Origin: Streptomyces sannanensis
Lineage (GTDB): Bacteria > Actinomycetota > Actinomycetes > Streptomycetales > Streptomycetaceae
DNA: 64,000 bases
Direction: 5' to 3'
Assembly: GCF_039536205.1 (NCBI RefSeq)
Contig: NZ_BAAAYL010000001.1
Location: 1,612,001 to 1,676,000 of the forward strand
Positions within the stretch are counted from its first letter, which is position 1. Every line of letters starts with the position of its first letter. Made by a program: the position numbers and the translations under genes. A model generated the notes under the pieces. It had not been told where the DNA came from and searched no databases. It worked only from the letters and a program-made list of their open reading frames with translations. Positions 16,837-29,491 of the stretch are shown one piece after another.

Positions 16837-17487
16837 ATGACGTACAGCGGAGCGGTGACGGTCGGCGGTCCTGCGGAAGTGCACGAACTCGCGGACCTGA
16901 TGATCTCCAAGGCCGCGGTCGGGCCCATGAACAACAACGCCTATCTGCTGCGCTGCCGGACCACTGACGAGCAGCTGCTGATCGACGCCGCGAACGAGCC
17001 CAGGACCCTGCTCGCGCTGATCGGTGACGACGGCATCAAGTCCGTCGTCACCACCCACCGCCACGGCGACCACTGGCAGGCCCTGGCCGAGGTCGTCGAG
17101 GCGACGGGCGCCACCACCTACGCGGGCAGGCACGACGCCGAGGGCATCCCGGTCCCCACCGACGTGCTCGTCGACGACGGCGACACGATCAAGGTCGGCC
17201 GGGTCGAGCTCACCGTCCGGCATCTGGTCGGCCACACCCCGGGTTCCATCGCACTGATCTACGACGACCCGCACGGCCACCCGCATGTCTTCACCGGTGA
17301 CTGCCTCTTCCCGGGGGGTCCTGGGCGGACAACACGTCCCGAACACTTCGAGTCGCTGATGTCGGGCCTGGAGGCGAAGGTCTTCGTACTCCCGGATGAG
17401 ACCTGGATCTACCCGGGCCACGGCAACGACACCACGCTCGGCGCCGAGCGGCCTCACCTCGGCGAGTGGCACGAGCGGGGCTGGTAG
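16837..17487 (+). CDS. MBL-fold metallo-hydrolase, hybrid: host N-terminus with element-supplied C-terminus
   Basis: 216 residues. Glyoxalase II-like metallo-beta-lactamase fold: metal motif THRHGDHW (HxHxDH), further ligands in VGHTPGS and FTGDCLFPGG, and the last metal His in YPGHGND. From residue 158 (17308) the sequence belongs to the inserted element: the normal continuation, FPGGVGNTWKNPDHF, is found 10.9 kb away at 28213, whereas here it reads FPGGPGRTTRPEHF and is two residues shorter. The final metal ligand lies in the replaced part, so the element must supply it for the enzyme to stay active. It probably hydrolyses a thioester or glutathione/mycothiol adduct. Confidence 0.92.
   Translation: MTYSGAVTVGGPAEVHELADLMISKAAVGPMNNNAYLLRCRTTDEQLLIDAANEPRTLLALIGDDGIKSVVTTHRHGDHWQALAEVVEATGATTYAGRHDAEGIPVPTDVLVDDGDTIKVGRVELTVRHLVGHTPGSIALIYDDPHGHPHVFTGDCLFPGGPGRTTRPEHFESLMSGLEAKVFVLPDETWIYPGHGNDTTLGAERPHLGEWHERGW
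17300..17326 (+). other. attL of the integrative element
   Basis: Host sequence TGCCT, core CTTCCC (17307-17312), then element sequence GGGGGGTCCTGGG. The element arm GGGTCCTG (17316-17323) is the exact reverse complement of CAGGACCC beside the core in attR, as expected for the two half-sites of an attP. Confidence 0.75.
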
Positions 17488-17540
17488 GTCGGCGGCATCG
17501 GCGCGACAAGGTTGCCAGTGCGACCTATCGGCGCCAACCG

Positions 17541-17569
17541 GGGCCACCGGACCGCCGCCCCGGTGGCCC
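17541..17569 (+). terminator. Hairpin downstream of the MBL-fold gene
   Basis: 10-bp perfect stem (17541-17550 with 17560-17569), 9-nt loop, 54 nt after the hybrid gene's stop and inside the element, so the element also supplies a terminator. Confidence 0.6.
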
Positions 17570-17694
17570 TTGGGCAGTAGCCGCGTCTGCGAACAGTCGG
17601 ATTTTGGTGGCACCGCCTACCACAGGCGGCTAACGTCCCGGCATGAACGATTCGCTCTCCTTCGAGAGCGTTCGCCCTCCACGCCGGTGTCGCC

Positions 17695-18513
17695 GTGGAG
17701 AAGCTCGTGAAGGCCGTCCTCGTCTCGAAGAGCCCGGTCTACATTGCGGAGATCCGTAACAACAGCGCGGACGTGGTGCTGCACCTCGGCGGGCACCTCC
17801 CGATGGACGAGGAGAAGGTCCGCACCGTCGGGGCCATGGAAGCCATCAAGCGGCTCCGGAAGATTGGCGTCCTCCAGCCGGACTCCCAACTCGACCTGCT
17901 GATCGAGATGCGCAATGGAGCGGCTCACACCTCTCCCGACAGCACCCTGGCCAAGGCAATGATTTCTCCCCTCGCCCGGACGGTTGAGACACTGCTCGAC
18001 GACCTCGGCAAGCCGCTGGACACCTTTTGGGAGCGGTGGACGGAGGCCGTCAAGGCCGCCGCGAACGAGCAGGAGGACCAGGTCTTCCGAGACGTACAGC
18101 TCCGGATCACGCAGGCCCGTCACGCCTTCGAAGACCGTTTCGTGGGCCTCCCCGCAGAGGTAAAGGAGGGAGCTCTCAAGGCGCCCCAGCCCCGCCGGGA
18201 GGAGTGGTTCGCCCGGCCGATGGAGATCAAGAAAGACGGCATGGTCGTCTTGAAGACCTCGGGCGGCGACTGCCCCGCCTGCGGCGGGCAGGGCCTCCTC
18301 ACGTTCGAACCGGTCAACCGGACGGCCACGGAGACGACTTTCACCGCGAACGGCTTCGGCTGCTACCTGTGCAACTTCGAGGTGAACGGCCCGGATGAGA
18401 TGGCCGCCCTGCGGAAGGCCAACACCCCCGGAATGGTGACCACGATGGCCGTCTCCCACGGCCCCACACTCGCCCCGGAGGGCATCAAGATGGGCGAGAC
18501 CAAGGCAGGCTGA
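17695..18513 (+). CDS. HEPN-like protein with C-terminal zinc ribbon, 5' end frameshifted
   Basis: 272 residues from the GTG at 17695. A helical N-terminal region contains LLIEMRNGAAHTS, an Rx4H motif as in HEPN RNase domains; the C-terminus has a zinc ribbon (CPACGGQG and CYLC). The natural start seems to be the ATG at 17643: its frame gives MNDSLSFESV and, if one base is restored near 17673, runs directly into RALHAGVAVEKLVKAVLVSK. So a single-base deletion (or sequencing error) has cut off the first residues. Whether the downstream GTG rescues translation is unknown. No named family recognised; an RNase or defence role is inference from the Rx4H motif only. Confidence 0.7.
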   Translation: MEKLVKAVLVSKSPVYIAEIRNNSADVVLHLGGHLPMDEEKVRTVGAMEAIKRLRKIGVLQPDSQLDLLIEMRNGAAHTSPDSTLAKAMISPLARTVETLLDDLGKPLDTFWERWTEAVKAAANEQEDQVFRDVQLRITQARHAFEDRFVGLPAEVKEGALKAPQPRREEWFARPMEIKKDGMVVLKTSGGDCPACGGQGLLTFEPVNRTATETTFTANGFGCYLCNFEVNGPDEMAALRKANTPGMVTTMAVSHGPTLAPEGIKMGETKAG

Positions 18514-18796
18514 TGTCACGTCGACGGCCCGGCCGGATGTGCGCTGTGATCACCAGCACCGCGACGACCCTCTCCAGCACCGGGGCGGAGATCGGGCCGA
18601 AGCATCGCGCGGCGAGGCGCGGCACGGGGAGGCGGCCGCCAGGACGTCCAGCACGGGGTTCGGCTGAAGCGCCCACCGGCCGGGTGACGGCCTCCTGGCA
18701 GAGACACTCACCGGCCCAAGTCATGCAAGCCGCCCTGGTCAGGGCCGGGATGGCGAACTCTGCAACCGGGCCATGCATGAAAGCTGTCTAGAAGAT
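18514..18796. other. Intergenic stretch, no supported gene
   Basis: 283 nt between the HEPN-like gene and the broken pentapeptide gene. Short open frames exist on both strands, but none has a ribosome site or recognisable protein. It probably holds the promoter of the downstream gene. Confidence 0.5.
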
Positions 18797-19331
18797 ATGA
18801 ACCTGTTGTCTGCCCTGGCCCAGAGGCAAAGGACCGCTCGCCGGCGAAAGAGCGCTTTGCGGATAGGTGCCGCGCTGGACCAGCGCCGGGAGCGAGTCAG
18901 GAGAGCCGACCGTCTTCGGCGACGGGGGCTGGTTGCCCTGGTGGCGATAGGAGGCCTGGCACTTATGGTCGGCCTGCCCTGGCTTATCTGGCGCGGCCCC
19001 TATGTCCTGGATGCCAAGTACATTGATCGCAAAGCTCTCGGTGAAGGATCAGCAGCGCTCGTCACCGGCCTGCGTACCACTCTGGTCGCGGTCGTTGCTG
19101 CTCTCGGCGCCGGCATCGCCCTGCTCTACACCGCCCGCACCTACCGTCTCACACGGCGCGGGCAGATCACCGACCGCTTCACCAAAGCTCTCGAACGGCT
19201 GGGCTCGCCCGAGATCTACGTCCGTATCGGTGGCATCCTCGCCCTCGAGCAGATCGTGCAGGACGCCCCCGAACAGGCAGCCACCGACGCTGCCGAGGTC
19301 CTCGGCCACTTCATCCGCCACCGGGCTCCTA
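18797..19331 (+). pseudogene. Membrane-anchored pentapeptide-repeat protein A, 5' part
   Basis: Two transmembrane segments (about residues 43-62 and 92-112), then YRLTRRGQITDRFTKALERL and GSPEIYVRIGGILALEQIVQ, a conserved juxtamembrane helical region. The frame is interrupted at 19331 by an IS5-family element. Removing the IS plus one copy of the TA duplication joins CCT to AAG and restores a single reading frame into the pentapeptide repeats at 20432. A start 24 nt upstream (18773) is possible. The same N-terminal design recurs in protein B at 24906. Function unknown; pentapeptide helices can mimic DNA or act as scaffolds. Confidence 0.85.
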
Positions 19332-20429
19332 GGGCGCGTATTCGGTTGTGATCAAGGGGTGGTCCGCGTGAGGTCCTTGATCCAGATCATCGAGGCGCGG
19401 AGGTGGAGGCCGGCGAGGTAGCTCTCAGGGGTCTTGTCGAAGCGGGTGGCGATGCCTCGCCATGCCTTCAGCTTGTTGATCAGCCGCTCGACGGCATTCC
19501 GCTCCTTGTAGAGGTCGGCGTCGTGGCTGACGGGCCGACCGCCCCTGCTGCCTTTCTTCTTCCGGTTGGCGGCCTGGTCCTTCTTCTCCGGGATGACCGC
19601 CTTGATGCGGCGTTTCCGCAGGTAGGCACGGTTTCCGTGGGACGAGTAGGCCTTGTCGCCGGCAACCGCGTCGGGGCGGGTGCGGGGGCGGCCGACGGGC
19701 AGGCGGACCCGCACCTTCTTGAGCACGGGGATGAACTGCGGGCTGTCCGCGGCCTGCCCCGCGGTCAGGACGAACGCCAGAGGACGGCACTTCCGGTCGG
19801 CGGCGAGATGAACCTTGCTGGTCAGCCCGCCCCTCGAACGTCCGAGCAGGGCGGCTTTCAGCCGGAGTTTGCGCCGGCGCCGGATGTGCCGTCGTTCTTC
19901 CCGCTCGGGGTCGTTTCCGGCGTCCTGCCCGTCTTGTTCTTCCGGGCCGCCCCCTTTTGCCGGGCCTTCTCCTCGTCGACGGCGGCCTTCTCCAGAGCGG
20001 TCATGACGTCCTGGCCGAGATGGGTACCGGCAGCGTCGTGGTGGGCCCGGGCTGTGGTGGAGTCCACGCTGACCAGGGACAAGTCCACCTCACCCCGCTT
20101 CGCGGCTTCCGCGATCAGGCCCTCCAGCAGGGCTTCGAAGACGCCGGCATCCCTCCACTGCCGGAAGCGGTTGTGGACGGTCGGCCAGGCACCGAACTCC
20201 TTCGGCATCTCCCGCCACTGCCCGCCCGTCCTGAACCGCCAGATCACGCCTTCGAATTGCTGTCGCAGCCGTTCGGGGTACGGGCCAAACCTGCCGATTG
20301 GCAGGTACGGCTCGATGAACTCCCACTCCTCGTCCGTCAACTGCACCCGCGTCATGCAAGACGATCTACCGGATCAGGCCCCGCCGCGAGGGCGAATCCC
20401 GCAAATTGATCACAACTCGATACGCGCCC
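19332..20429 (-). mobile_element. IS5-family (IS427-group-like) insertion sequence, complete
   Basis: 1098 bp. 24-bp terminal inverted repeats, 19332-19355 and 20406-20429, match at 21 of 24 positions. Flanked by a TA target duplication (19330-19331 and 20430-20431), proven by exact restoration of the interrupted gene's frame on removal. Two overlapping transposase frames on the minus strand. Confidence 0.93.
19352..20355 (-). CDS. IS5-family transposase, two frames joined by -1 frameshift
   Basis: Frame A (20355 to 19858, 165 residues) starts MTRVQLTDEEWEFIEPYLP, the DUF4096-type helix-turn-helix domain, and holds the first catalytic Asp in VSVDSTTARAHHDAAG. Frame B runs from about 19890 to 19352, with LTSKVHLAADRKCRPLAFVL, the second Asp in VAGDKAYSS and the catalytic Glu in KERNAVERLINKLKAWRG. 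Frame B is offset by -1 relative to A, consistent with the programmed -1 frameshifting known in this IS family. Both halves look intact, so it may be active. Confidence 0.9.
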
Positions 20430-20431
20430 TA

Positions 20432-21030
20432 AGGCCCGACGTCAGGACGACCCCGATCCCGGCCGCCTTCCCGATGAACTGGCGGCCGACGTACAGGCAG
20501 CGCTCACCGCACTCACCCGAGCAGAGTCACGCACCCACGTCGACCCCCGCCAACAGCTCGATCTCAGTGGGCTTCACCTCGTCGGTGCACGTCTAAAGGC
20601 CGCGGATCTCACCTATGTCAACATGAGAGGGGCGGATTTGACGGGGGCCTACCTGTCCGGGGCAACGTTGACGGAGGCCAACCTGATCAGGGCGACGTTG
20701 ACGAAGGCCACCCTTTTCGAAGCGACGTTGACGGAGGCTGACCTGGCCTACGCGACGTTGGCAGGGGCCAATCTGCGAAGGGCGGATTTGACGGGGGCCT
20801 ACCTGGTCAAGGCGACGCTGACGGGGGCCAAGTTGGGCAAGGCGACGTTGACGGAGGCTGCCCTGAAAGAGGCGACGTTGACGAAGGCCGCCCTGCCCGA
20901 GGCGACGTTGACGGGGGCTGACCTGTCCGGGGCGACGCTCACTGGGGCCGACCTGTCCAGGGCAGTTACGACAGGTATCGTGACTGACAAGCGCACGAGG
21001 ATGCCGGAGAGGTGGGCCCCGGAGGCATAG
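20432..21030 (+). pseudogene. Pentapeptide-repeat protein A, 3' part
   Basis: Continuation of the gene broken by the IS: a helical linker (RLPDELAADVQAALTALTRA, QLDLSGLHLVGARLKAADL) then about 24 pentapeptides of the A(D/T)L-x-x type, for example MRGADLTGAYLSGATLTEAN. The DNA is correspondingly repetitive, with a recurring 15-bp unit like GCGACGTTGACGGAG. The repeats form a right-handed quadrilateral beta-helix in known structures. An internal ATG at 20623 could express the repeat domain alone. Confidence 0.85.
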
Positions 21031-21126
21031 CGGTGGCGAAGAATGGCGGTTAGGGCCGGGTGGCGCCGTAGTAGGCCCCGGAGTCCTCGCCCAGACACCA
21101 GGGAGCAAGTAACCCACCGGTAGGTT

Positions 21127-21237
21127 TCAGGGCTTCATGACGGTGGTCTTCTTCGGCTGCCGGGGGACGGTCTTGGTTTTGTTGAGGTGTCCGTACACCG
21201 TCGACCGTGGCACGCCGAACACGAGGCGTGCAGACGG
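21127..21237 (-). pseudogene. Recombinase/resolvase C-terminal HTH fragment
   Basis: The minus strand reads ARLVFGVPRSTVYGHLNKTK and ends PKKTTVMKP and stop at 21127. This is the helix-turn-helix tail typical of resolvase-type recombinases (FGVPRSTVYGHL). No catalytic domain remains; upstream sequence is out of frame. Confidence 0.6.
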
Positions 21238-21283
21238 TCGTTCTCCTCTTGGCTAAGCGCGGCCACCATCCGGGCCAACGACG

Positions 21284-21520
21284 TCACACCCGGCAGCAGC
21301 ACGGGTTAGGGGTGTGCTTGCGGACCTTCGCCCGGTACAGCGTCACGTCGTAGCCGTGATCCGCCTCAGTCACCGTGGCGAAGTCCAGGGCGACCAGCTC
21401 GGAGACGCAGGCCGCCGTGGCGAACCCGAGCAGCACCGGGAGGCGTTTGCGCTTCACGACAAAGGTGGTCCGGTTGCCGTCGGCGAACATGGCGCGGGTC
21501 TGCGGAGAGAGGGCCGCGAC
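21284..21520 (-). pseudogene. Tyrosine recombinase (integrase) fragment with lost catalytic Arg
   Basis: The minus strand encodes LSPQTRAMFADGNRTTFVVK then LLGFATAACVSELVALDFAT and YDVTLYRAKVRKHTPNP. This is the first part of a tyrosine-recombinase catalytic domain, in which family members read GFATAARVSELVALD. The catalytic Arg is replaced by Cys, and no later catalytic residues follow. A relic of another integrase, divergent from the PIN gene. Confidence 0.65.
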
Positions 21521-21568
21521 GTCGGAAACCGAAGGCGCACCAGCGGGCCGCGCTGGCAGGATCACCGC

Positions 21569-22519
21569 ATGCTCATCACACCGCGCCCCGGCGCAGACCG
21601 GGAGAACATCCGGCAGGTCCTCAGCGGCGTCCACACCACGGCTATGAACCTGCAGCGGCCGTACGGCAGCGCCTTCGAAGGGCTGCTGACGTATTTGGAC
21701 TGGGCCACGGAGTCCGCGCGGATGCTGCGCTCCCAGATCAGCGATCGGGACCTCGACCAGCTCGTGTTCACCGACCGCTACCGGGCGCTCCTGGGCAGCT
21801 GCGGCACGCTCGCCGGGACCGCCCAGCAGCGCCTCGTGAACGGTCTGGTCCAACTTGAGGTCGCCGAACGGATCGAGGCGTTCGAGGCGGCCGTGGCCGC
21901 GCTGGATGCGCGGATCGGCCGATGGAGCCAGCGGGAGGTGTTCGTCGTGGCCGACTCCAGCTTCTACATCCAGAACGAGGTGAAGCTGGCCGACGTCGAC
22001 CTGCACGAGGTGCTCGACGTGCCGCGGTGGCAGTTCGTGCGCCTGTTGTTCCCGATCGTGGTGGTCGACGAGCTGGACGACCTCAAGGACGCCAGCAAGC
22101 AGCGGGCCCGCTGGCGTGCCGCCCACACGCTCGGTCTCCTCGACGGGGTCCTCAAGGGCGGCACGCACGGGGTCTTACACGAAGGGGAGCACACCGTTCA
22201 GGACGGCGAGACCCGCGGCAGGGTCAACGTTGAGATCGTCCTCGATCCCCCCGGCCACGTGCGCCTGGACCGCCCCGATGTCGAGATCATTGACCGGACG
22301 GTGGCCATCCAGGGCCTGGCCGGCCGCGACGTTCGGTTGCTGACGTGCGATACGAGTCAGCACACCCGGGGCCGGGCCGCCGGGCTGCAGGTGACCAAGG
22401 TGGCGACGAAGGACCCCGGGGACGAGCCGGACTGGTCGGCCCCGGACAGGTCTGGCACTGGCGTACGCGCGCAGCGGCGCGCCCGGCAGGCCGAAGCCCA
22501 GGCTCCGACGGCCAGTTGA
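21569..22519 (+). CDS. PIN-domain ribonuclease-like protein
   Basis: 316 residues. An N-terminal helical region (about 130 residues) precedes a PIN domain: first acidic residue in VFVVADSSFYIQNEV, second cluster in PIVVVDELDDLKDASKQ, third in IIDRTVAIQGLAG and fourth in VRLLTCDTSQHTRGRAAG. This is the D-E/D-D-D layout of Mg-dependent PIN nucleases such as VapC. The size suggests a stand-alone RNase rather than a small VapC toxin, and no antitoxin-like gene overlaps it. ATG 21569 chosen; the upstream open frame does not look coding. Probably element cargo; the RNA target is unknown. Confidence 0.8.
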   Translation: MLITPRPGADRENIRQVLSGVHTTAMNLQRPYGSAFEGLLTYLDWATESARMLRSQISDRDLDQLVFTDRYRALLGSCGTLAGTAQQRLVNGLVQLEVAERIEAFEAAVAALDARIGRWSQREVFVVADSSFYIQNEVKLADVDLHEVLDVPRWQFVRLLFPIVVVDELDDLKDASKQRARWRAAHTLGLLDGVLKGGTHGVLHEGEHTVQDGETRGRVNVEIVLDPPGHVRLDRPDVEIIDRTVAIQGLAGRDVRLLTCDTSQHTRGRAAGLQVTKVATKDPGDEPDWSAPDRSGTGVRAQRRARQAEAQAPTAS

Positions 22520-22834
22520 GAATCGAGCACCACGGCAGTAACACTGCGCTACACGCCGCCTGGCGGTAGCTATACGAGAACAAGGCCTACCGCGATTGGC
22601 CCGCCCGGGGATGCGGCCTCCACGGTGAGCTGACGGTGGCTGCATGGCGATCGTCGTGCTGCGCGAGCTGCGCAAGGAACTGTCGGACGACTTCGGCGCG
22701 GGCGATCCGCTCGGCTTCATCAAGGCGGTACACGCGGCGCCGGCCGACTCGGATGTCTCGGGAGACCCTGACGACCGAACGTTCTGCGGAAAACCCTGGC
22801 GGGCGTCCGGCCTGAGCGGCGTTCCCCAAGGCCG
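22520..22834. other. Gap with a possible short coding remnant on the plus strand
   Basis: From 22644 a plus-strand frame with strong third-position G/C (MAIVVLRELRKELSDDFGAG, then DPLGFIKAVHAAPADSDV) runs about 35 codons before coding character is lost. It may be a truncated gene. No family recognised. Confidence 0.3.
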
Positions 22835-23262
22835 TTACCAGCCAGGAGGCAGGATCATTCCGGTGGGCAGTGGCGACCCGCTTGCTGGAACCAGACCGGT
22901 TGGCGCTACACCCGTCGCGCCAGAGAAATCGACGGTGCCTCCGGAGAACTCCGCGCGGTTAAAGGAGATGGTGCCGCCGGAGAACTCCGAGCCGGGGAAG
23001 CCGATGGTGCCACCGGAGAACTTCGCGTGGAGGAAGAGGACGGTACCGCCGGAGAACGCTGCACCGGCGATGGACACGGTGCTGCCGGAGAACTTTGCGC
23101 CGATGAAGTCGACGGTGCCGCTGGAGAACACCGGGCTCAGGAAGTCGACCGTGCCGCCGGAGAACTGCGCACGGGCGAAGTGAACGGTTCCGCCGGAGAA
23201 CTGGGTGTGGCTGAAGTTAACCGTGCCGCCGGAGACCGTTGCGTTGCCGGGAGCCGTTCGCC
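22835..23262 (-). pseudogene. Pentapeptide-repeat protein B, 3' part
   Basis: The minus strand encodes ten-residue units of the type FSGGTVDFxxAx (FSGGTVNFSHTQ, FSGGTVHFARAQ, FSGGTVDFLSPV and so on), about nine units, ending ILPPGW and stop at 22835. This is a beta-helix repeat of a different flavour from protein A. Its upstream part is cut by the IS1182-like remnant; the junction lies near 23250. Its N-terminal membrane part is at 24523-24906. Confidence 0.75.
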
Positions 23263-24533
23263 AGCGGTCGGCCGAGCGCGGCGGTGTGTCCGGCGGGGCA
23301 GGTGACCTCGCCCTTCTCGGTGTCGACGGTGAACTCGTCGGCGGTGAAGCCGCTGGGGACGGCCGGTTTCAGCGGCGGTGGCTTGAGGACCGGGTCGTGG
23401 CCCTGGGCCTGGAGGTGTTCGCGCAGGTCGCCGGTGCCGTAGGCGGCATCGCCCAGGACGGTGAGCGGTGCTTCCTCGTCGGCGAGGAGGTCGCGGGCGA
23501 TGGCGGCCTCGTGGTTGTCGGCCCCGCTGCCGGCGGTCAGGGCGACCTCGGTGAACAGCCCGGCCTCGGGTTCGAAGGCCACGTGGGCGCGGAAGCCCTC
23601 CTGGTGGCGGGTGCGGTTCTTGTGAATGTGCCGCGCCTCGGGGTCGACGGTGGAGACCGTGCGGTCGCGGGCGGTCCCGCGGGTGATGCGCCAGCGCCCG
23701 TCGCGGCCGTCGGATTCCTCGGCCGGCTCCACGTCCTGGCCCGCGACCAGGGCCAGCAGCCCGACGGCGTTCGCCGCGGCCTCGCCCAACTGCTGCTCGG
23801 GCAGGCGGCCGAGCAGGTTCAGCGCGTCGGTGACCAGGGCGTCGACTAGTGCCTCACGGGCGGCCTGGTCGTTCCAGGCGATGCGGGGCTTGCCCGGGTC
23901 GGCGTAGTCGTGCGCGGTGCACCACGCCGCAGCAACCTGCTCGGCATCGGGGACCTCGCGGATGACCCGGCGGATCGCGGCGATGAGCTGGGTGACGGTG
24001 TCCTGGGTGGCGACCGCGTCGTCCAGCACGGTGGAGTCCAGCGCCCGCCGCTGCCGGCCCTTGAGGACACCGGTGGCCGTGACGACCTCCCTGACCTTGG
24101 CGAACAGCCGGTTCGGGTCACCCGAGCGCTGCAGTCGGCGGCGGAAGTACGTCAGCAGCGACGGGTCGAACGCGGTGTCATACAACCCCAGCCCGCACGC
24201 CGCCTTCCACCAGGTCACAGCGCAGTTCCTGCACCGTCTCGAAGTCCGAGAGCCCGTGCAGGCTCTGCAGCACCACCGTCGCGGCCAGCACCTGCGGCGG
24301 CATCGACGGCCGCCCGTTCGTCGAGGGGTACATGTCCGCGAACATCGACCCGGGGAACAGCACTTCGCGATGCTCGGCCAGGAACGCGAACACACTCCCG
24401 GCCGGGATCAGCTCCCGACAGGTCTCCCACGCATCCGGCCCGACCGTCTCCCCAGCCCATTCCCCCTGCACACACAGCAGTCTGGCCCCACACCAGTGCG
24501 CGCGAGGCCAGAACCGAGATTTTCAGTGATCTT
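23250..24533 (-). mobile_element. IS1182-like element, frameshifted and 3'-truncated
   Basis: The transposase-like sequence starts MQGEWAGETVGPDAWETCRE at 24471 and matches the intact copy at 53422-55002. A 2-nt deletion near 24215 shifts the frame (RCDLVEGG against RCDLRWKAAC in the intact copy). The sequence stops inside the zinc-binding region after CPAGHTAALGRPLA, so the last about 90 codons and the left inverted repeat are gone. The right end (ending CAGTGATCTT at 24533) abuts a CTAG at 24534-24537, the same target as the intact copy. Inactive. Confidence 0.85.
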
Positions 24534-24906
24534 CTAGACGGACCGCGGCGGATTCCTCTCCGAGTTGGGAGACAGCAGTGGTGAAGCGTTCGGTGTGCAG
24601 GCGGGTGGCATCCCGCAGGGCGCCGTCCTCGTCGACGCGCTGGCGCCGGTAGGCCACGACCAGGGCGACCAGGGCACCGGCCCCGGCGACCACTCCGAAG
24701 GACAGCTTCACCAAGTCGAACAGCGTCTTCGAGTCGACTCGGCGCTCAGGCTTGAGGCCTCGGGCGCCGAGCAGGTCCCATCCGGCATAGAACACGACGA
24801 CGGCCACCAGGATCGCGGCAATGAAGGTCAGGCCGAGGACGGTTCCGACCGGCCAGAGCCTCAACCCACGCTGGTTCGTCCGGCGCCGGGGCACAGGTGC
24901 TGTCAC
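24523..24906 (-). pseudogene. Membrane-anchored pentapeptide-repeat protein B, 5' part
   Basis: From a GTG at 24906: a basic N-terminus, two transmembrane segments (about residues 20-42 and 68-86), then YRRQRVDEDGALRDATRLHT and ERFTTAVSQLGEESAAVRL. Reading then enters the IS1182-like element and stops. The order TM, TM, T(E/D)RFT..A...LG is the same as in protein A at 18797. Its beta-helix repeats survive at 22835-23262; the section between is missing, so IS insertion was followed by deletion. Confidence 0.8.
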
Positions 24907-25005
24907 ACATCAACAGGACGGCCCGAGCCCGCCGCCGGTTGCGGCCACCCTCACGAGACCAGGGGGTTCGACGCGCCAACTCCCGGCGGCAGGCTTTAAG
25001 CACGC

Positions 25006-25045
25006 CGAAGGGCCCGCCATGCCTCCACGGCGGGCGGGCCTTTCG
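25006..25045 (-). terminator. Hairpin after the 25.1-kb hypothetical gene
   Basis: A GC-rich stem with outer CGAAGGG...CTTTCG and inner CCGCC...GGCGG lies just beyond the stop of the leftward 116-residue gene. Confidence 0.55.
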
Positions 25046-25070
25046 GTTGCCCAGGAAGGCTGCCCGGGCG

Positions 25071-25421
25071 TCAGCCGACGTCCAGGAGCACGGCGGTCAC
25101 GAAGGCCTCCGCCTGGTCCTCCGACCACTTCCCGTACGGCACGCTGGCCTGTGTCAGGGAGTGCCGCAGGCACAGCGCCGCGTCTCTCAGGGGCACGGGC
25201 TGCTTGTCGCCCTCGTCGGCCGCGTCCTGGAGGGCGCGCCGGGCGACGCGTACGGCCGTCGCCGGGTCCACAGAGTGCACCCACTTCAGTGCCGTGATCA
25301 CGTCGGTGTAGAGGTCACTCCAGCGCAGGTTGTCCATGCCGAACTGCTGGCCGTGGTGGCGCAGGTTGAACGCCAGGGCGTGGCCGATGGCGCCGGTAAC
25401 GCCCGCCGGTAAGTCGCTCAC
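25071..25421 (-). CDS. Hypothetical protein, 116 residues
   Basis: Begins MSDLPAGVTGAIGHALAFNL, acidic and helical, ends AEAFVTAVLLDVG. Strong third-position G/C and a terminator-like hairpin behind it support a real gene. No motif recognised. Cargo of the integrative element, 9 nt downstream of the degraded frame ending at 25431. Confidence 0.65.
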   Translation of the reverse strand: MSDLPAGVTGAIGHALAFNLRHHGQQFGMDNLRWSDLYTDVITALKWVHSVDPATAVRVARRALQDAADEGDKQPVPLRDAALCLRHSLTQASVPYGKWSEDQAEAFVTAVLLDVG

Positions 25422-25430
25422 GAAGACTCC

Positions 25431-25720
25431 TCAGTACTCGATCGGGTGGGGCCGGTTGTGCACGGCGCGGTCCTCCACAGCCCTATACGCGGCCGTGGCG
25501 TCCTCGCCCCGGGTAATCGTGCCAGCGAGGACCCCGGCGAGCCCGTTGCAGAGCACACGGGCTCGCCGTCGTCGGCGGGCAGCTCGCTCGGGACAGTGCA
25601 CAGGTACAGGTTGAACACGGCCAGAGGCTTGGCGCCTATGACTCGGAGGCCTCCCGAGCCGTGACGGCCAGGAAACCGTTCGACACCCGCACGCGGGGCA
25701 TGAGGTCGACGTCCGACAGC
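25431..25720 (-). pseudogene. Degraded hypothetical gene with frameshifts
   Basis: Coding-like pieces follow one another in different minus-strand frames: MPRVRVSNGFLAVTAREASE, then LAVFNLYLCTVPSELPADDG, then VLCNGLAGVLAGTITRGEDA and YRAVEDRAVHNRPHPIEY ending at 25431. They read like one protein broken by at least two frameshifts. It would have been co-directional with the 25071-25421 gene. No family recognised. Confidence 0.45.
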
Positions 25721-25827
25721 CCGGAGTTCGGGCGGGGCCCGCTCGCGCCCTGGTGCAGGGGAAGTCATGGCGGCACGGCCGAAAAAATGTGGCGCGCGCC
25801 CACCAGCGAGCCCGCCACCCTAGGACC

Positions 25828-26465
25828 GTGAGCGAAGCACTGGACGACCCCGATACCTGACCCGCCTGCCCCCACGGCGCTCGGACTGGCACAGCATCGC
25901 CGTCATCGGTAGCCCCCACGAGGACGACTTCGACGTAGCCCTCGGTTACTTGCAGGCGGCCGACATCCTCGCGAGTCACTGGATCCGCAATGGCACGAAC
26001 GATGCGCTGCCTGTCCCGATCTACTACAACTACCGGCACGGCATCGAGCTGTCCCTGAAGGGCTGTATCCGCGTGGCGGCGGGCTGCCTGCGCCGCGACG
26101 GCGTCGAACTCCCGCCCGGCGAGCCCGACAAGCTCGTCAACGCCTCGCACGTGATCGGGCGCCTGGCGGATCGACTGAACCAGTACCTCAGCCAGCTCCT
26201 GGATGACCCGAACGATCGCATTCCTCAGGAGACCCAGGAGACCCTCGACTGGCTGCACCAGCTCGACGAGAACGGGCAAACGTTCCGATACAGCACCGTC
26301 AAGGGCGGTAAAGGCAGGGGAGTGGTGAGGGCCAGGCCGAACCAGCAGAACATCGACTTCGACGCAGGCTGGATGCTGTACGGCGGGGTAGGAGGCTACC
26401 TCGACAATCACGCCGAACTGCAGGCCGACTACTACGCAGAGATGGCACAGCACGCTTGGTGGTGA
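25828..26465 (+). pseudogene. Hypothetical protein with a one-base frameshift near its start
   Basis: A GTG at 25828 gives MSEALDDPDT and stop. The adjacent frame has no ATG or GTG near its 5' end but encodes RYLTRLPPRRSDWHSIAVIG, then continues for 171 codons from TTG 25950 (LQAADILASHWIRNGTNDAL, IYYNYRHGIELSLKGCIR, ending EMAQHAWW). Adding one C to the run at 25848-25850 fuses the two as MSEALDDPRYLTRLPPRR. A recent deletion or a sequencing error in a C-run is likely. No family recognised; it may still be translated from an internal start. Confidence 0.6.
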
Positions 26466-26679
26466 GAGATCTACGGGGCCCCAGGAGGAGCAACTAGAGC
26501 TGCGCTGGCCCGGCCCATTCCGGCGACAGGCGGGCAGTGCCTGATCGTCGTTCTCGCCGTGACAGAGACGCGAGGGCGCGCGCCAGCTCCGCGGAAGAGC
26601 CCGCGGCCGAAGCAGCGGGCCTCTTGTCGTGGGGCCCGGCAGCGAATGATCCTGCCGGGCCCGTACGGCATCCGCGTAC
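26466..26679. other. Gap between cargo gene and recombinase
   Basis: 214 nt between the convergent ends of the 25828-26465 gene and the recombinase. No gene supported; no clear perfect hairpin found. Confidence 0.4.
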
Positions 26680-28194
26680 TCAGGCGCCCGTCCGCGCCCA
26701 GTGGAGCTCAATGGTGGTCTGGTCGAACCCGGGGCCGCGCCGCGCTACCGGATGCACCCTCAACCGCAGGCCCAGGCCGTCCAGGACCCGCCGCTGCTGC
26801 GGCACCGCGAGCGCTTCCCACGTCTCCCCCGACCGCGGCCCCACGAGGCCATCGAAAGCGTCGAGGTCGAAGGCCGGCCGCAACCGGCGCGCCTCGTTCT
26901 GCGCGTCCGTGATCTGCTTCGCCAGCCTCGCCGTGATGCGCCGCAACTGCTCACGGGTAATGATCCCGTCCGCGTAGTCGTCCGCCGCCGCCTCCTGGCG
27001 CGCCTTCAACCTCTCTGCCCGTTCCAGGGCCGCCAGGGCCGCCGAGTCGTCCCCACGGAAGACCTCGGCCGCCTCCGGACGCGACAGCACCCCCACAACC
27101 ACCCGCCCGACGTAGCGGTCGAGCGCCTCCTCATTCCGGCCGACACAGCCGCTCGCGTCGCAGACGTACGTCGGCTGCTTCTGGCCCCGCTTCGCGTTCC
27201 CCTTCAGCGCAACCCGGAGCACCGACCCGCACGGCCCGCACGTGGCGACCTCGCCCCACGTCAGCAGGTGCTTGCGCGCCCCCGGCAGCTCCCGCACCAC
27301 GGCCCGCTCCGCGAACAGGTTCCGCAGCTGTGCGTACTGCTCGTCCGTGATGAGCGCCGGCCATGCCGCCTTGTACTCCACGCCCTGGTGCACGCGGAGC
27401 CCCACGTTCGCCGGCCGCAGCGCGAGCTTCTTCACGCTGGTCTTGTTCCACAGCGACCCGTCCGCGTTCTGTCCGACAGCCCGCCGTTTGAGGTGCATGC
27501 CGGCACCGGGCGACGGCACACCGCGCTCGTTCAGGTCAGCCGTGATGCCGATGAGGCTGCCTCCGGCCAGCAGGCGGGTGACGATCTCCCGGACAACCCC
27601 GGCCTGTACCGAGTCCTCGACGTCATGGAACCCGCTCACCTGCCCCCGGGCGTCGTACTCGTACTGACGCTGCCACCCGTACGCCACGGCGCCGTTCGCC
27701 CGGCCCTCCTGGGCGCGCTCCAGGGCCGCACGGGCAACACGTTCCGACTTCACCTCGGACTCGGCGGTGTCGGACTCGCCGAGGTTGGCGAGCTGCGACC
27801 GGTCCGACGCCTTCGCCATGTTGAACAGACCGCCGGACTCGAACGCGACCCAGCACCCCGCGTGCCTCAAGTCCTCGATCGCCTGCGCGCGCTCGACACG
27901 GCGCCGCCAGACGCGTGACGGGTGGTAGCCCGCGACGATGACACGGACACCGGGTTCGCGGGCGGCCTGGATGGCGTCGGCCATCAGCCGGTCATACTCG
28001 GGGCGTTCCTCACCCGAGTGGGCCGAGACGTCGTTCTCGATGTACTCGCCGCCGACCTCCCAGCCGTTCTCCTCGGAGAACGTGCGCAGGTCGCTCATCT
28101 GCCGGTTGACGCCCCGCCGACGGTCGCGCGGGTCCTCGGAGATCCGCGCGTACAAGAAGACGAGGGTACGGCGCGGGAGCGTCTTAGTGTTCAC
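26680..28194 (-). CDS. Large serine recombinase (integrase)
   Basis: 504 residues. Catalytic domain at the N-terminus: LVFLYARISEDPRDRRRGVN, where the Ser of ARIS is the nucleophile, then the Arg cluster in IVAGYHPSRVWRRRVER. The recombinase domain follows (ANGAVAYGWQRQYEY, GITADLNERGVPSPGAGM, NKTSVKKLALRPANVG), then a zinc ribbon (CGPCGSVLRV ... YVCDASGCVG) and a coiled-coil region (residues about 400-450). Size and order fit phiC31-type integrases. The GTG at 28194 is used although the frame is open upstream, because coding similarity begins there and the attachment site is only 5 nt away. It should catalyse the attB x attP reaction; no excision factor was recognised. Confidence 0.93.
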   Translation of the reverse strand: MNTKTLPRRTLVFLYARISEDPRDRRRGVNRQMSDLRTFSEENGWEVGGEYIENDVSAHSGEERPEYDRLMADAIQAAREPGVRVIVAGYHPSRVWRRRVERAQAIEDLRHAGCWVAFESGGLFNMAKASDRSQLANLGESDTAESEVKSERVARAALERAQEGRANGAVAYGWQRQYEYDARGQVSGFHDVEDSVQAGVVREIVTRLLAGGSLIGITADLNERGVPSPGAGMHLKRRAVGQNADGSLWNKTSVKKLALRPANVGLRVHQGVEYKAAWPALITDEQYAQLRNLFAERAVVRELPGARKHLLTWGEVATCGPCGSVLRVALKGNAKRGQKQPTYVCDASGCVGRNEEALDRYVGRVVVGVLSRPEAAEVFRGDDSAALAALERAERLKARQEAAADDYADGIITREQLRRITARLAKQITDAQNEARRLRPAFDLDAFDGLVGPRSGETWEALAVPQQRRVLDGLGLRLRVHPVARRGPGFDQTTIELHWARTGA

Positions 28195-28223
28195 AGGACA
28201 GGACCCTAGAACTTCCCCGGCGG
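28195..28223 (+). other. attR of the integrative element
   Basis: Element arm CAGGACCC (28199-28206), TAGAA, core CTTCCC (28212-28217), then host CGGCGG. With attL it rebuilds an attP whose two 8-bp arms are perfect inverted repeats around a 14-nt centre, and an attB lying within the MBL gene's FPGG codons. Confidence 0.75.
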
Positions 28224-28398
28224 CGTGGGCAACACCTGGAAGAACCCTGACCACTTCGCCAGTCTGATCCACGACGTGGAGACCAAGCTGTTCGACCAAC
28301 TCGCGGACGAGACCTGGGTCTACCCCGGCCACGGCAACGACACCACGCTCGGAGCCGAGCGCCCTCACCTGCCGGAGTGGCACGCGCGCGGCTGGTAG
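28213..28398 (+). pseudogene. Displaced original 3' end of the host MBL-fold gene
   Basis: 61 codons, FPGGVGNTWKNPDHF through DETWVYPGHGNDTT to LPEWHARGW and stop, with no start of its own. It is the natural continuation of residue 157 of the MBL protein at 16837 and aligns with the element-encoded replacement, with two one-codon gaps. It carries the last metal ligand (His of PGHG). Untranslated unless read from a chance upstream start. Confidence 0.92.
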
Positions 28399-28444: not shown

Positions 28445-29491
28445 ATGACGACGCCTCTGTATCCGCCCAAGCCCCGCCCCGGCGACCGGATCGCGGTGAT
28501 CTCACCGTCCTCCGGTCTGCCGGGGCTGCTGCCGCTCCCGTACGAACTCGGACTGACGCGCCTCGAAAAGGACTTCGGCCTGGTGCCGGTGGAGTATCCG
28601 GCCACCCGCACAATGGGCTCCACGGCGCAGGAGCGCGCCGACGACATCCACGCCGCTTTCGCCGACGACTCCGTCAAGGCGGTGATCGCGAGCATCGGCG
28701 GCGACGACCAGATCACCGTACTGCCGCTGCTGGACCGCGAGTTGATCCGGGCGAACCCGAAGCCGTTCTTCGGGTTCAGTGACAACACCAATCTGCTGGC
28801 CTACCTCTGGAACACCGGGATCGTCGGCTACCACGGCGCGAGCGTGATGTGCGAGCTCGGCCGTCCGGGCGCGATGGAGCCGCTGACGGAGGAGTCCCTG
28901 CGGGCCGCGCTGTTCGGCTCGGGTCCGTACGAACTGCGCCCCGCCGAGCGGTTCCGCGACATGGACCGCGACTGGGCGGACCCGACGACCTTCGAGTCGG
29001 AGCCGGAGACCCGGCCGGGCGGCGGCTGGTTCTGGCACGGCCCCGAGCGGGTGGTGGAGGGCAGGAGCTGGGGCGGCTGTCTGGAGATCCTGTCCTGGCT
29101 GCTGATGGCGGACCGGGAGATCCAGGCCGACCTGTCGGCGTACGACGGCTGTGTGCTGTTCCTGGAGACCTCGGAGGAACTGCCGGCCGCGGAGGAGGTG
29201 TTCCGGATCCTGCGGAACATGGGCGAGCGCGGACTGCTGCAGCGCTTCCCCGCGCTGCTGATGGGGCGCCCAAAGACCTGGTCGTTCGAACAGCCCAACG
29301 GCCCGGAGGAGGCCGATCGTTACGCCCTGGAGCAGCGCAAGGCCGTGCTGCGCGCGCTGGCGCTGTACGCACCGGAGACGGTGGCCGTGTTCGACGTCGA
29401 CCTGGGGCACACCGATCCACAGCTCGTCATACCCTACGGCGGGCTGGTCCGGGTCGACGGGCCGGCGCGCAGCGTGACGGTCACCTATTGA
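28445..29491 (+). CDS. S66-family LD-carboxypeptidase / MccF-like peptidase
   Basis: 348 residues. S66 serine peptidases cleave the L,D-bond of murein tetrapeptide or, as MccF, inactivate microcin C-type nucleotide peptides. The N-terminus is PRPGDRIAVISPSSGLPG; the Ser nucleophile is in FFGFSDNTNLLAYLW; the Glu and His of the catalytic triad are in LFLETSEELP and DLGHTDPQLVIP. The extended loop region (GGWFWHGPERVVEGRSWGGC) resembles the MccF-like branch more than LdcA. Start ATG 28445. It lies downstream of the MBL gene, which the integrative element now separates from it. Confidence 0.9.
   Translation: MTTPLYPPKPRPGDRIAVISPSSGLPGLLPLPYELGLTRLEKDFGLVPVEYPATRTMGSTAQERADDIHAAFADDSVKAVIASIGGDDQITVLPLLDRELIRANPKPFFGFSDNTNLLAYLWNTGIVGYHGASVMCELGRPGAMEPLTEESLRAALFGSGPYELRPAERFRDMDRDWADPTTFESEPETRPGGGWFWHGPERVVEGRSWGGCLEILSWLLMADREIQADLSAYDGCVLFLETSEELPAAEEVFRILRNMGERGLLQRFPALLMGRPKTWSFEQPNGPEEADRYALEQRKAVLRALALYAPETVAVFDVDLGHTDPQLVIPYGGLVRVDGPARSVTVTY

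Follow-up and report, generated by a model that had tools for sequence, protein, structure and literature searches.

The element inserted in icd of Escherichia coli is a familiar case in which a tyrosine integrase acts within a gene and the element restores the gene end. In the SCCmec and ECC cassettes the gene end is also kept, two recombinases are used, and the extreme 3' end of the gene alone is involved. The recombinases of these cassettes are the large serine recombinases CcrAB, acting at the 3' region of rlmH (as given in part of PMC6222049), and tyrosine-integrase elements are described as restoring the 3' ends of tRNA genes and of rplL, rpsI, and lysS (passages of PMC9262239, PMC5704250, and PMC4701971). 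Insertion by a serine integrase is treated as gene disruption in the relevant passages on 29 integrative and conjugative elements (ICEs; PMC4701971), on three sites (PMC8092301), and on integrative and mobilizable elements (IMEs; PMC5704250), and one passage states that the attB of a serine integrase has to be determined experimentally (PMC9262239). In Mycobacterium abscessus a serine integrase was reported to act at codon 6 of a gene for a methyltransferase, and the passage concerned leaves open whether expression is reconstituted (PMC10654092). Here we describe an element of about 10.9 kb inserted in a metallo-β-lactamase (MBL)-fold hydrolase gene of Streptomyces sannanensis, within a stretch of 64,000 nucleotides (contig NZ_BAAAYL010000001.1, positions 1,612,001 to 1,676,000 of the forward strand; hereafter the window). 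Judging from its sequence and its relatives, we have little doubt that this is a phage-type serine integrase element carrying its own gene end, whose integration would swap the C-terminus of the MBL protein and keep the gene at full length.

The Split Gene and the Inserted Element

An earlier note on this DNA had claimed that a serine-recombinase element splits the MBL gene after residue 157, that the left end of the element encodes a 59-codon homologous tail giving a full-length hybrid protein, and that the native 61-codon tail is intact but orphaned at 28213. The coordinates of the split were confirmed, and the recombinase has Resolvase (PF00239) and Recombinase (PF07508) domains above cut-off. 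The hybrid open reading frame (ORF) at 16837-17487 (+) encodes 216 amino acids, comprising 157 host codons and the element tail, and the orphaned frame is indeed open from 28213 to 28398 and is followed by a host ORF at 28445. The features are as follows (positions in the window).

16837-17307 (+), host part of the MBL-fold hydrolase gene, codons 1-157 (reading frames; HxHxDH)
17308-17487 (+), element-borne replacement tail, codons 158-216 plus stop (59 codons), with the last metal-ligand His in YPGHG (ORF, relatives, phages, tail tree)
17308-17309 (+), attL core dinucleotide TT, putative crossover (dyad centre of 14 attP sites; TTCCC at the tail start)
17310-17335 (+), P' arm of attP, within the tail coding sequence (low third-position GC content, ACA and CCT codons)
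17488-26679 (no strand), variable cargo (ORF scans; little in common with related elements)
26680-28194 (-), large serine recombinase, 504 amino acids, GTG start within the P arm (Pfam domains, YARIS motif)
28187-28212 (+), P arm of attP, in attR, an imperfect inverted repeat of 17310-17335
28213-28214 (+), putative attR core dinucleotide TT
28213-28398 (+), orphaned native MBL 3' end, 61 codons plus stop, still open (groups with native Streptomyces tails)
28445-29491 (+), host ORF, 348 amino acids, synteny marker (tblastn)

Pfam Lactamase_B (PF00753) covers residues 29-195 of the hybrid, and the middle His and the Asp of HxHxDH in the host part are presumably metal ligands, as assigned from the family. 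The protein resembles glyoxalase II (PF00753; 2zwr is the top-ranked solved chain in sequence), and its matches to the NCBIfam gloB and beta-lactamase models were far below cut-off. The recombinase, which has YARIS (YxRxS) at residue 15, CGPC at residue 319, and no Pfam zinc-ribbon match at E ≤ 1e-2 (0.01), is present as one copy in its genome, two further matches being just 30-32% identical. The element tail and the orphan tail of the window share 69% protein identity. Some relatives, both empty and occupied (e.g., genomes G034, G160, G201, and G049), likewise have a homologue of the host ORF at 28445-29491 on the 3' side of the MBL gene.

In the mechanism that we propose, a large serine integrase would recombine attP with attB, a site at codons 157-158 of an MBL hydrolase gene that is conserved among actinobacteria. 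The attP is situated at the 5' edge of the tail, a "headless" version of the final 59-61 codons of this gene, which the element has next to its integrase gene. Crossover at TT would create an attL in which host codons 1-157 are fused in frame to the element tail, giving a full-length hybrid gene, and an attR which would retain the integrase adjoining the displaced native tail. Integration would exchange the C-terminal 27% of the protein rather than knock the gene out, and on decay of the element the hybrid end could remain.

Origin of the Two Gene Ends

The presence of two homologous tails flanking the element would agree with a target duplication, in which the host gene end was copied at insertion and the copies then diverged, but the identities make this origin extremely improbable. 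At the DNA level the window tail is 87-94% identical to those of G139, G254, G164, and G097 and is nearer to element tails (mean 81.3%) than to native tails (74.4%), while the reverse holds for the window orphan (mean 73.4% to element tails and 82.0% to native tails). Target duplication is refuted for Streptomyces by the tail tree, in which the orphan tails grouped with native tails in 17/17 Streptomyces cases entered, as did that of L104, the exceptions being O_L105 and O_L106; the orphan tails of G164, G361, and G216 were left out of this tree.

The element's own gene end is also apparent when the tail is compared with the rest of the gene. In trees of 92 genes, the tail tree being made with the defining motif removed, the label "element or native end" required 23 changes on the host-part tree versus 2 on the tail tree, and 4 when orphan and phage tails were added to the latter (L167 was counted as element type in the trees and in the codon and pN/pS analyses, and as native in the gene collection). 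In DNA, G000 and G164 are 93.3% identical over the last 1.5 kb of the element (integrase) and 94.4% identical in the tail, versus 83.0% in the host part and 83.0% in the orphan tail. Co-inheritance of tail and integrase is seen in several pairs. The G000/G164 identities, the tail tree, and the tail in free phages (see below) bear out the further claim of the earlier note that the tail is not a simple duplication but a copy belonging to the element and evolving with it.

Occurrence in Streptomyces

When 392 Streptomyces genomes were searched with the hybrid protein and with the element-type tail, a tail match (E ≤ 1e-15) was found in 387, and an element-type end (FPGGPGRT..., versus the native FPGGVGNT...) in at least 34, a lower bound counted among the roughly 150 matches listed. 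A near-complete orphan native tail lies 3' of the hybrid gene in 18 of the 34, at 2,951 to 217,359 bp; these tails were sought with the native tail in 39 chosen genomes, and the greatest two distances (93 and 217 kb) do not imply a single element. Fragments of an orphan tail are found behind the hybrid gene in G226, G139, G110, G361, and G003. The integrase at the site is full length in G000, G350, G164, and G343 (96% identical to that of the window), full length with one in-frame stop each in G290 and G269 (84-86% identical), and fragmentary in G169, G230, G361, G216, G149, G110, and G003.

Neither integrase nor second tail was found with nine hybrids (G242, G160, G225, G330, G028, G245, G272, G049, and G201), of which those of G242 and G028 are near contig ends; for G330, G245, and G272 the integrase was sought in 10-15 kb of each, and the element-tail search gave one tail each. 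Because other genomes show graded remnants, we read these nine as decayed or lost elements, and the graded series from intact to vanished would fit element decay with the hybrid gene kept. In G160 (L085, 473-1123 and 1761-2781) the next host gene begins ~0.6 kb after the hybrid gene, versus ~0.2 kb at the empty site of G034, and the end of this gene may be a replacement that outlived its element, almost none of which is left.

As to the empty site, the host part is joined to an orphan-type tail in the 20 Streptomyces genes without an element tail that were read. These genes, together with the grouping of the orphan tails with native tails, indicate that the empty site is as the earlier note had predicted, with a native-type tail joined to residue 157.

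Two further arrangements were seen. G216 (L078, 933-1112 and 14703-14858, reverse complement) has two element-type tails in a row and an integrase fragment, and this G216/L011 arrangement looks like stacked insertions. In G266 (L103) a native full-length gene (1032-1214) is followed ~800 bp downstream by a frameshifted second tail copy (2000-2181), possibly the trace of a lost insertion.

Free Phages and Other Hosts

The integrase and the tail are also neighbors outside of chromosomes. In 50,697 phage records, the best 12 for the integrase (41.3-41.5% identical) were the 12 Mycobacterium phage records with the tail (68-70%), 266 weaker integrase matches lying beyond them. The three genomes opened (Larva, Kratio, and Collard) have the order integrase (-), attP, tail (+), with a tail of 60 amino acids. 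Since an in-frame stop lies five codons upstream of the tail head and the annotated ORF (43 amino acids) starts inside the tail, the full phage tail would make sense only after integration. The uncultivated viral contig L182 (10.8 kb) has the integrated form, namely the MBL part, an element tail, an integrase with 42% identity, and a second tail. Scans of viral contigs with two integrase proteins gave no relatives. Among plasmid records, the integrase matches listed were all <33% identical, and of the tail matches the one opened was a whole MBL gene, most others listed being annotated as MBL-fold proteins.

Nine loci came from a scan of a named genome collection. In seven of them, L004-L010, the integrase is adjoined by an orphan or element tail (S. 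lucensis, S. resistomycificus, Streptomyces sp. AC1-42W, S. chryseus, Kitasatospora sp. A2-31, a metagenome-assembled genome of Streptosporangiaceae, and Streptomyces sp. TP-A0356), whereas remnants are found in L011 (BK239), and L012, from another phylum, matches weakly and in part. Four of L004-L011, namely L004, L005, L010, and L011, coincide with the contigs of G164, G343, G169, and G216, respectively, which leaves four additional ones. The tail adjoining the integrase of L009 is of element type, as a free or tandem form would show.

Of 394 genomes of the class, six have an integrase match at E ≤ 1e-60. In G000, G589, G583, and G622 a displaced tail beside the integrase is accompanied by a hybrid gene (on another contig in G622), and G583 and G622 belong to another family. 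No MBL tail match was found within 1.5 kb on each side of the integrases of G499 and G509 (L108 and L109; 36-38% identical to that of Larva), and these elements might carry tails of other genes. G589 (genus g4) is probably mycobacterial; its integrase is 80% identical to that of Larva. When 41 genomes of its genus were searched and the 20 best loci read, 16 had native and 4 had element-type ends, which is no estimate of frequency, these loci being the best matches to the G589 hybrid. The hybrid/orphan arrangement is not due to chance: it recurs across species, families, and a viral contig, and the tail adjoins the integrase in free phages.

An Attachment Site Inside the Coding Sequence

Fourteen attP sites were compared, 10 rebuilt from attR and attL and 4 read directly (three phages and L009); the Streptomyces sites are 9 of 20 attR rows, picked by eye for a recognizable P arm, to which G589 was added, and all are related. 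Dyad symmetry centred on TT averaged 0.49 over 26 positions on each side, versus 0.265 ± 0.023 in shuffles, with 0/5000 shuffles as high and TT being the best of 17 centres tried; the value was 0.58 for the window and 0.496 for nine lineages alone. TTCCC stands at the tail start in the attL, attR, and attB rows with rare exceptions, and unbroken identity at the window junction is limited to TTCCC, followed by scattered bases. TT is the likely crossover site.

The right attP arm is within codons 158-167 of the hybrid gene, and the left arm (28187-28212) holds the integrase start codon as well as an in-frame TAG two codons upstream of the orphan tail. Codon use in this part of the tail is unusual. 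Over codons 2-11 of the tail, the GC content at third positions (GC3) falls to 0.58 in the element type (n = 41), versus 0.91 in native tails (n = 51; G010, or L168, a Streptomyces, was grouped as "other" in the codon and half-tail analysis). In element tails ACA accounts for 64/81 Thr codons in codons 5-9 versus 16/696 elsewhere in the same genes, and CCT for 28/41 Pro codons versus 17/451 elsewhere. Judging from the dyad symmetry and these biases, the first codons of the tail are half of attP as well, i.e., a case of dual coding.

The Hybrid Enzyme

Because the first 11 codons are shaped by something besides host codon habit, it may be asked whether the tail is kept only as integrase-binding DNA, the hybrid enzyme being useless and its open frame a by-product. 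No such gene was found in G274 and G079, and that of G005 has a frameshift, in keeping with that possibility. We consider this view quite unlikely, because codons 12-60 are outside attP and their ratio of nonsynonymous to synonymous diversity (pN/pS) is like that of native genes: from codon 12 to the end it was 0.27 and 0.31 for element tails (31 Streptomyces genes, 23 + 8 by length, of 41 collected) and 0.27 for native tails (19 genes). In addition, YPGHG is present in each of the 41 element-tail genes collected, all of them open (as was required for their collection), and no MBL gene cut at the site without a tail was seen in the 392 Streptomyces genomes. The best MBL match was E ≤ 1.1e-100 in all but G005, G221, G079, G130, and G274 (a piece of 161 residues gives 4e-91); the gene is cut by contig ends in G221 and G130, G274 and G079 have distant paralogues only, G005 has the frameshift, and the end is diverged in G077. 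Among phage tails, the widest of three pairs differs by 10 synonymous and 6 other changes. The sequences show purifying selection on the tail.

An AlphaFold model of the hybrid had a mean predicted local distance difference test score (pLDDT) of 86 and a predicted template modeling score of 0.87, the tail forming a helix, the ligand-bearing strand, and a terminal helix. The hybrid enzyme is probably active.

Cargo of the Window Element and of Related Islands

The cargo of the window element consists of hypothetical ORFs, pentapeptide-repeat proteins at 20623-21030 (+) and 22835-23131 (-), and a PIN-domain-like ORF at 21314-22519 (+). In the latter, 86 residues match a region of G290 at 86%, and the G164 element has a PIN-domain protein too, but of a different Pfam family. 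Two transposase-like stretches are found at 19352-20355 (-) and 23217-24395 (-) (PHROG transposase matches), stops interrupting a single-frame reading of the former; the window copy has been invaded by these stretches and may be decaying. No virion structure or packaging genes were found when 10 element ORFs were compared with PHROGs and 7 cargo ORFs with Pfam.

Few of the Streptomyces elements fetched have more than the integrase and the tail in common with the window, short stretches of cargo being common to it and G254, G290, G343, G361, and G342. As so little cargo is common to them, the integrase-attP-tail unit is the inherited module, and the remainder varies among its carriers (mycobacteriophages, prophages, and small islands). 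Virion genes do occur in relatives, with a terminase in the G589 element (about 10.7 kb) and a tape measure protein and DnaB in the G583 element (about 30.5 kb). In G269 and G343, the portions of cargo compared with Pfam were little informative.

The same site also harbors, behind the hybrid gene, an island of ~4.4 kb lacking an integrase in five Streptomyces species (L062-L064, L066, and L068, i.e., G013, G352, G260, G124, and G249). These islands are 94-97% identical over >4.1 kb, with right ends 93.5-99.1% and host parts 84-93% identical, and that of G260 has putative TetR-like, FAD oxidoreductase-like, and MFS-exporter-like ORFs, named from sequence. No integrase like that of the window was found at E ≤ 1e-20 in the five genomes. 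Cargo without its own integrase still spreads.

Exchange of Tails and the Weight of the Evidence

A number of observations weigh against the reading that integration swaps the gene end. The attP sites were picked by eye and are related, so that their symmetry is supporting evidence rather than 14 independent tests, and five other attR rows share a different right end. The synonymous diversity (pS) of codons 1-11 is not reduced overall (0.43-0.45), and therefore a constraint would act on single positions. The label is clustered on the host-part tree too (23 changes versus a mean of 30.3 in shuffles, 0/500 as low; starred branches force 9). The clustering of the orphan tails O_L105 and O_L106 with the element tails of their own family is at odds with a strict division into two classes. 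In G216, too, the displaced tail is of element type, the last native-tail codons lying further on. The structural model is least confident around the junction, with a pLDDT of 68-71 at residues 151-170. The window copy may be immobile, its cargo having the two transposase-like stretches and no recognized phage or transfer gene. The earlier note had taken the tail on closely related strains without the recombinase as a sign against it. Such a tail does occur without the recombinase, 21 of the 34 hybrids having no integrase remnant in the stretches searched (nine of them no orphan either), so that their link to the element is the tail and, in some, also the orphan; on the other hand, none of them is a known close relative of the window strain.

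The history of the tails themselves is the point on which ordinary homologous allele exchange, with the element coincidental, has to be considered. The integrase ends of G000 and G350 are alike (93.9%) and their tails are not (81.9%; host part 85.6%), which suggests some exchange or separate capture, and from which we infer that tails may have been exchanged between element lineages or hosts. The first half of the tail is 76% identical between Streptomyces and g4 elements and 53% between element and native tails within Streptomyces, while the second half is 70% and 83% identical, respectively; that is, the 3' half follows the host genus rather than the element. The tail may accordingly combine an old element-specific first half, tied to attP, with a second half captured from or homogenized with the host gene. 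As the sole cause, however, allele exchange is refuted by the free-phage tail next to the integrase, and the switch at TTCCC in the junctions read, the orphan native tails behind the insert, the attP dyad symmetry, and the likeness of tail and integrase but not of both host flanks between G000 and G164 all speak against it. We regard it as very unlikely to have spread the gene ends by itself, although it could still explain the 3' half. The notion that the native gene is itself the hybrid was rejected, along with target duplication and plain allele exchange.

Integration by a serine integrase that carries its own gene end is the reading we retain. It is tempting to go further and to regard the integrase-attP-tail unit as a mobile system for exchanging gene ends, spread among the phages and islands of several families of actinobacteria, which would have repeatedly and permanently replaced the C-terminal quarter of this enzyme, with hybrids outlasting the element and the swapped end (a new helix, metal-ligand strand, and terminal helix) altering the enzyme to the benefit of the element, i.e., lysogenic conversion by part-replacement. 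We hold this wider proposal to be possible but rather doubtful.

Comparison with Known Systems

Like the tyrosine-integrase restorers of gene ends, the present element carries the end of its target gene at the attachment site, a homologous end keeps the frame open, and the gene would be left working. Neither an identical core nor a tyrosine integrase was found here, however. In tyrosine systems an identical core (13-17 bp in lysS and ≥25 bp at tRNA sites of mycobacteriophages) covers the restored end, according to passages of PMC9262239, PMC5704250, and PMC4701971, whereas in the present system the integrase is a serine recombinase, the core measures about 2-5 bp, and the tail, at 59-61 codons, has diverged and evolves independently. 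It also differs from the SCC/ECC cassettes, since one serine recombinase ORF was recognized and not a ccrAB pair, the target is an MBL hydrolase gene and not rlmH, and a quarter of an enzyme, with a catalytic ligand, is replaced by a diverged homologue through a phage-type integrase.

Bxb1 (groEL1), Bxz2, MabI/MabJ of M. abscessus, A118 (comK), and the streptococcal ICEs (rumA) use the same enzyme class and an attB in a coding gene. These insertions disrupt the gene, and at rumA the insertion exchanges the 3' part with a change of frame, as described in parts of PMC4701971, PMC8092301, and PMC9262239. The MBL-tail integrase family is an exception to this equation of serine-integrase insertion with gene disruption. 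No description of gene-end restoration by a phage or ICE serine integrase was found in the literature, chiefly that outside subscription journals.

The closest described relatives are the Larva/Kratio-type mycobacteriophages (Kratiovirus, subcluster K5), which have the same integrase, attP, and tail module; the Streptomyces elements differ from them in their cargo, and their integrase is about 41% identical. In the K5 mycobacteriophages the tail stands as an odd annotated gene, with no role given to it and no attB named in that paper (King et al.; PMC5679794). Our finding explains this odd gene and predicts the K5 attB from sequence alone, and the headless tail offers in general a way round the experimental search for attB. 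The tail also provides an example of a coding sequence doubling as half of an attachment site, along with dozens of natural chimeras of one enzyme, and a headless homologous gene end beside an integrase gene is a simple signature by which further cases, and new integrases with known targets, may be recognized. Tyrosine integrases are well known to restore gene ends, as is CcrAB at the rlmH 3' end; what appears to be new here is its association with a phage-type serine integrase and a diverged tail.

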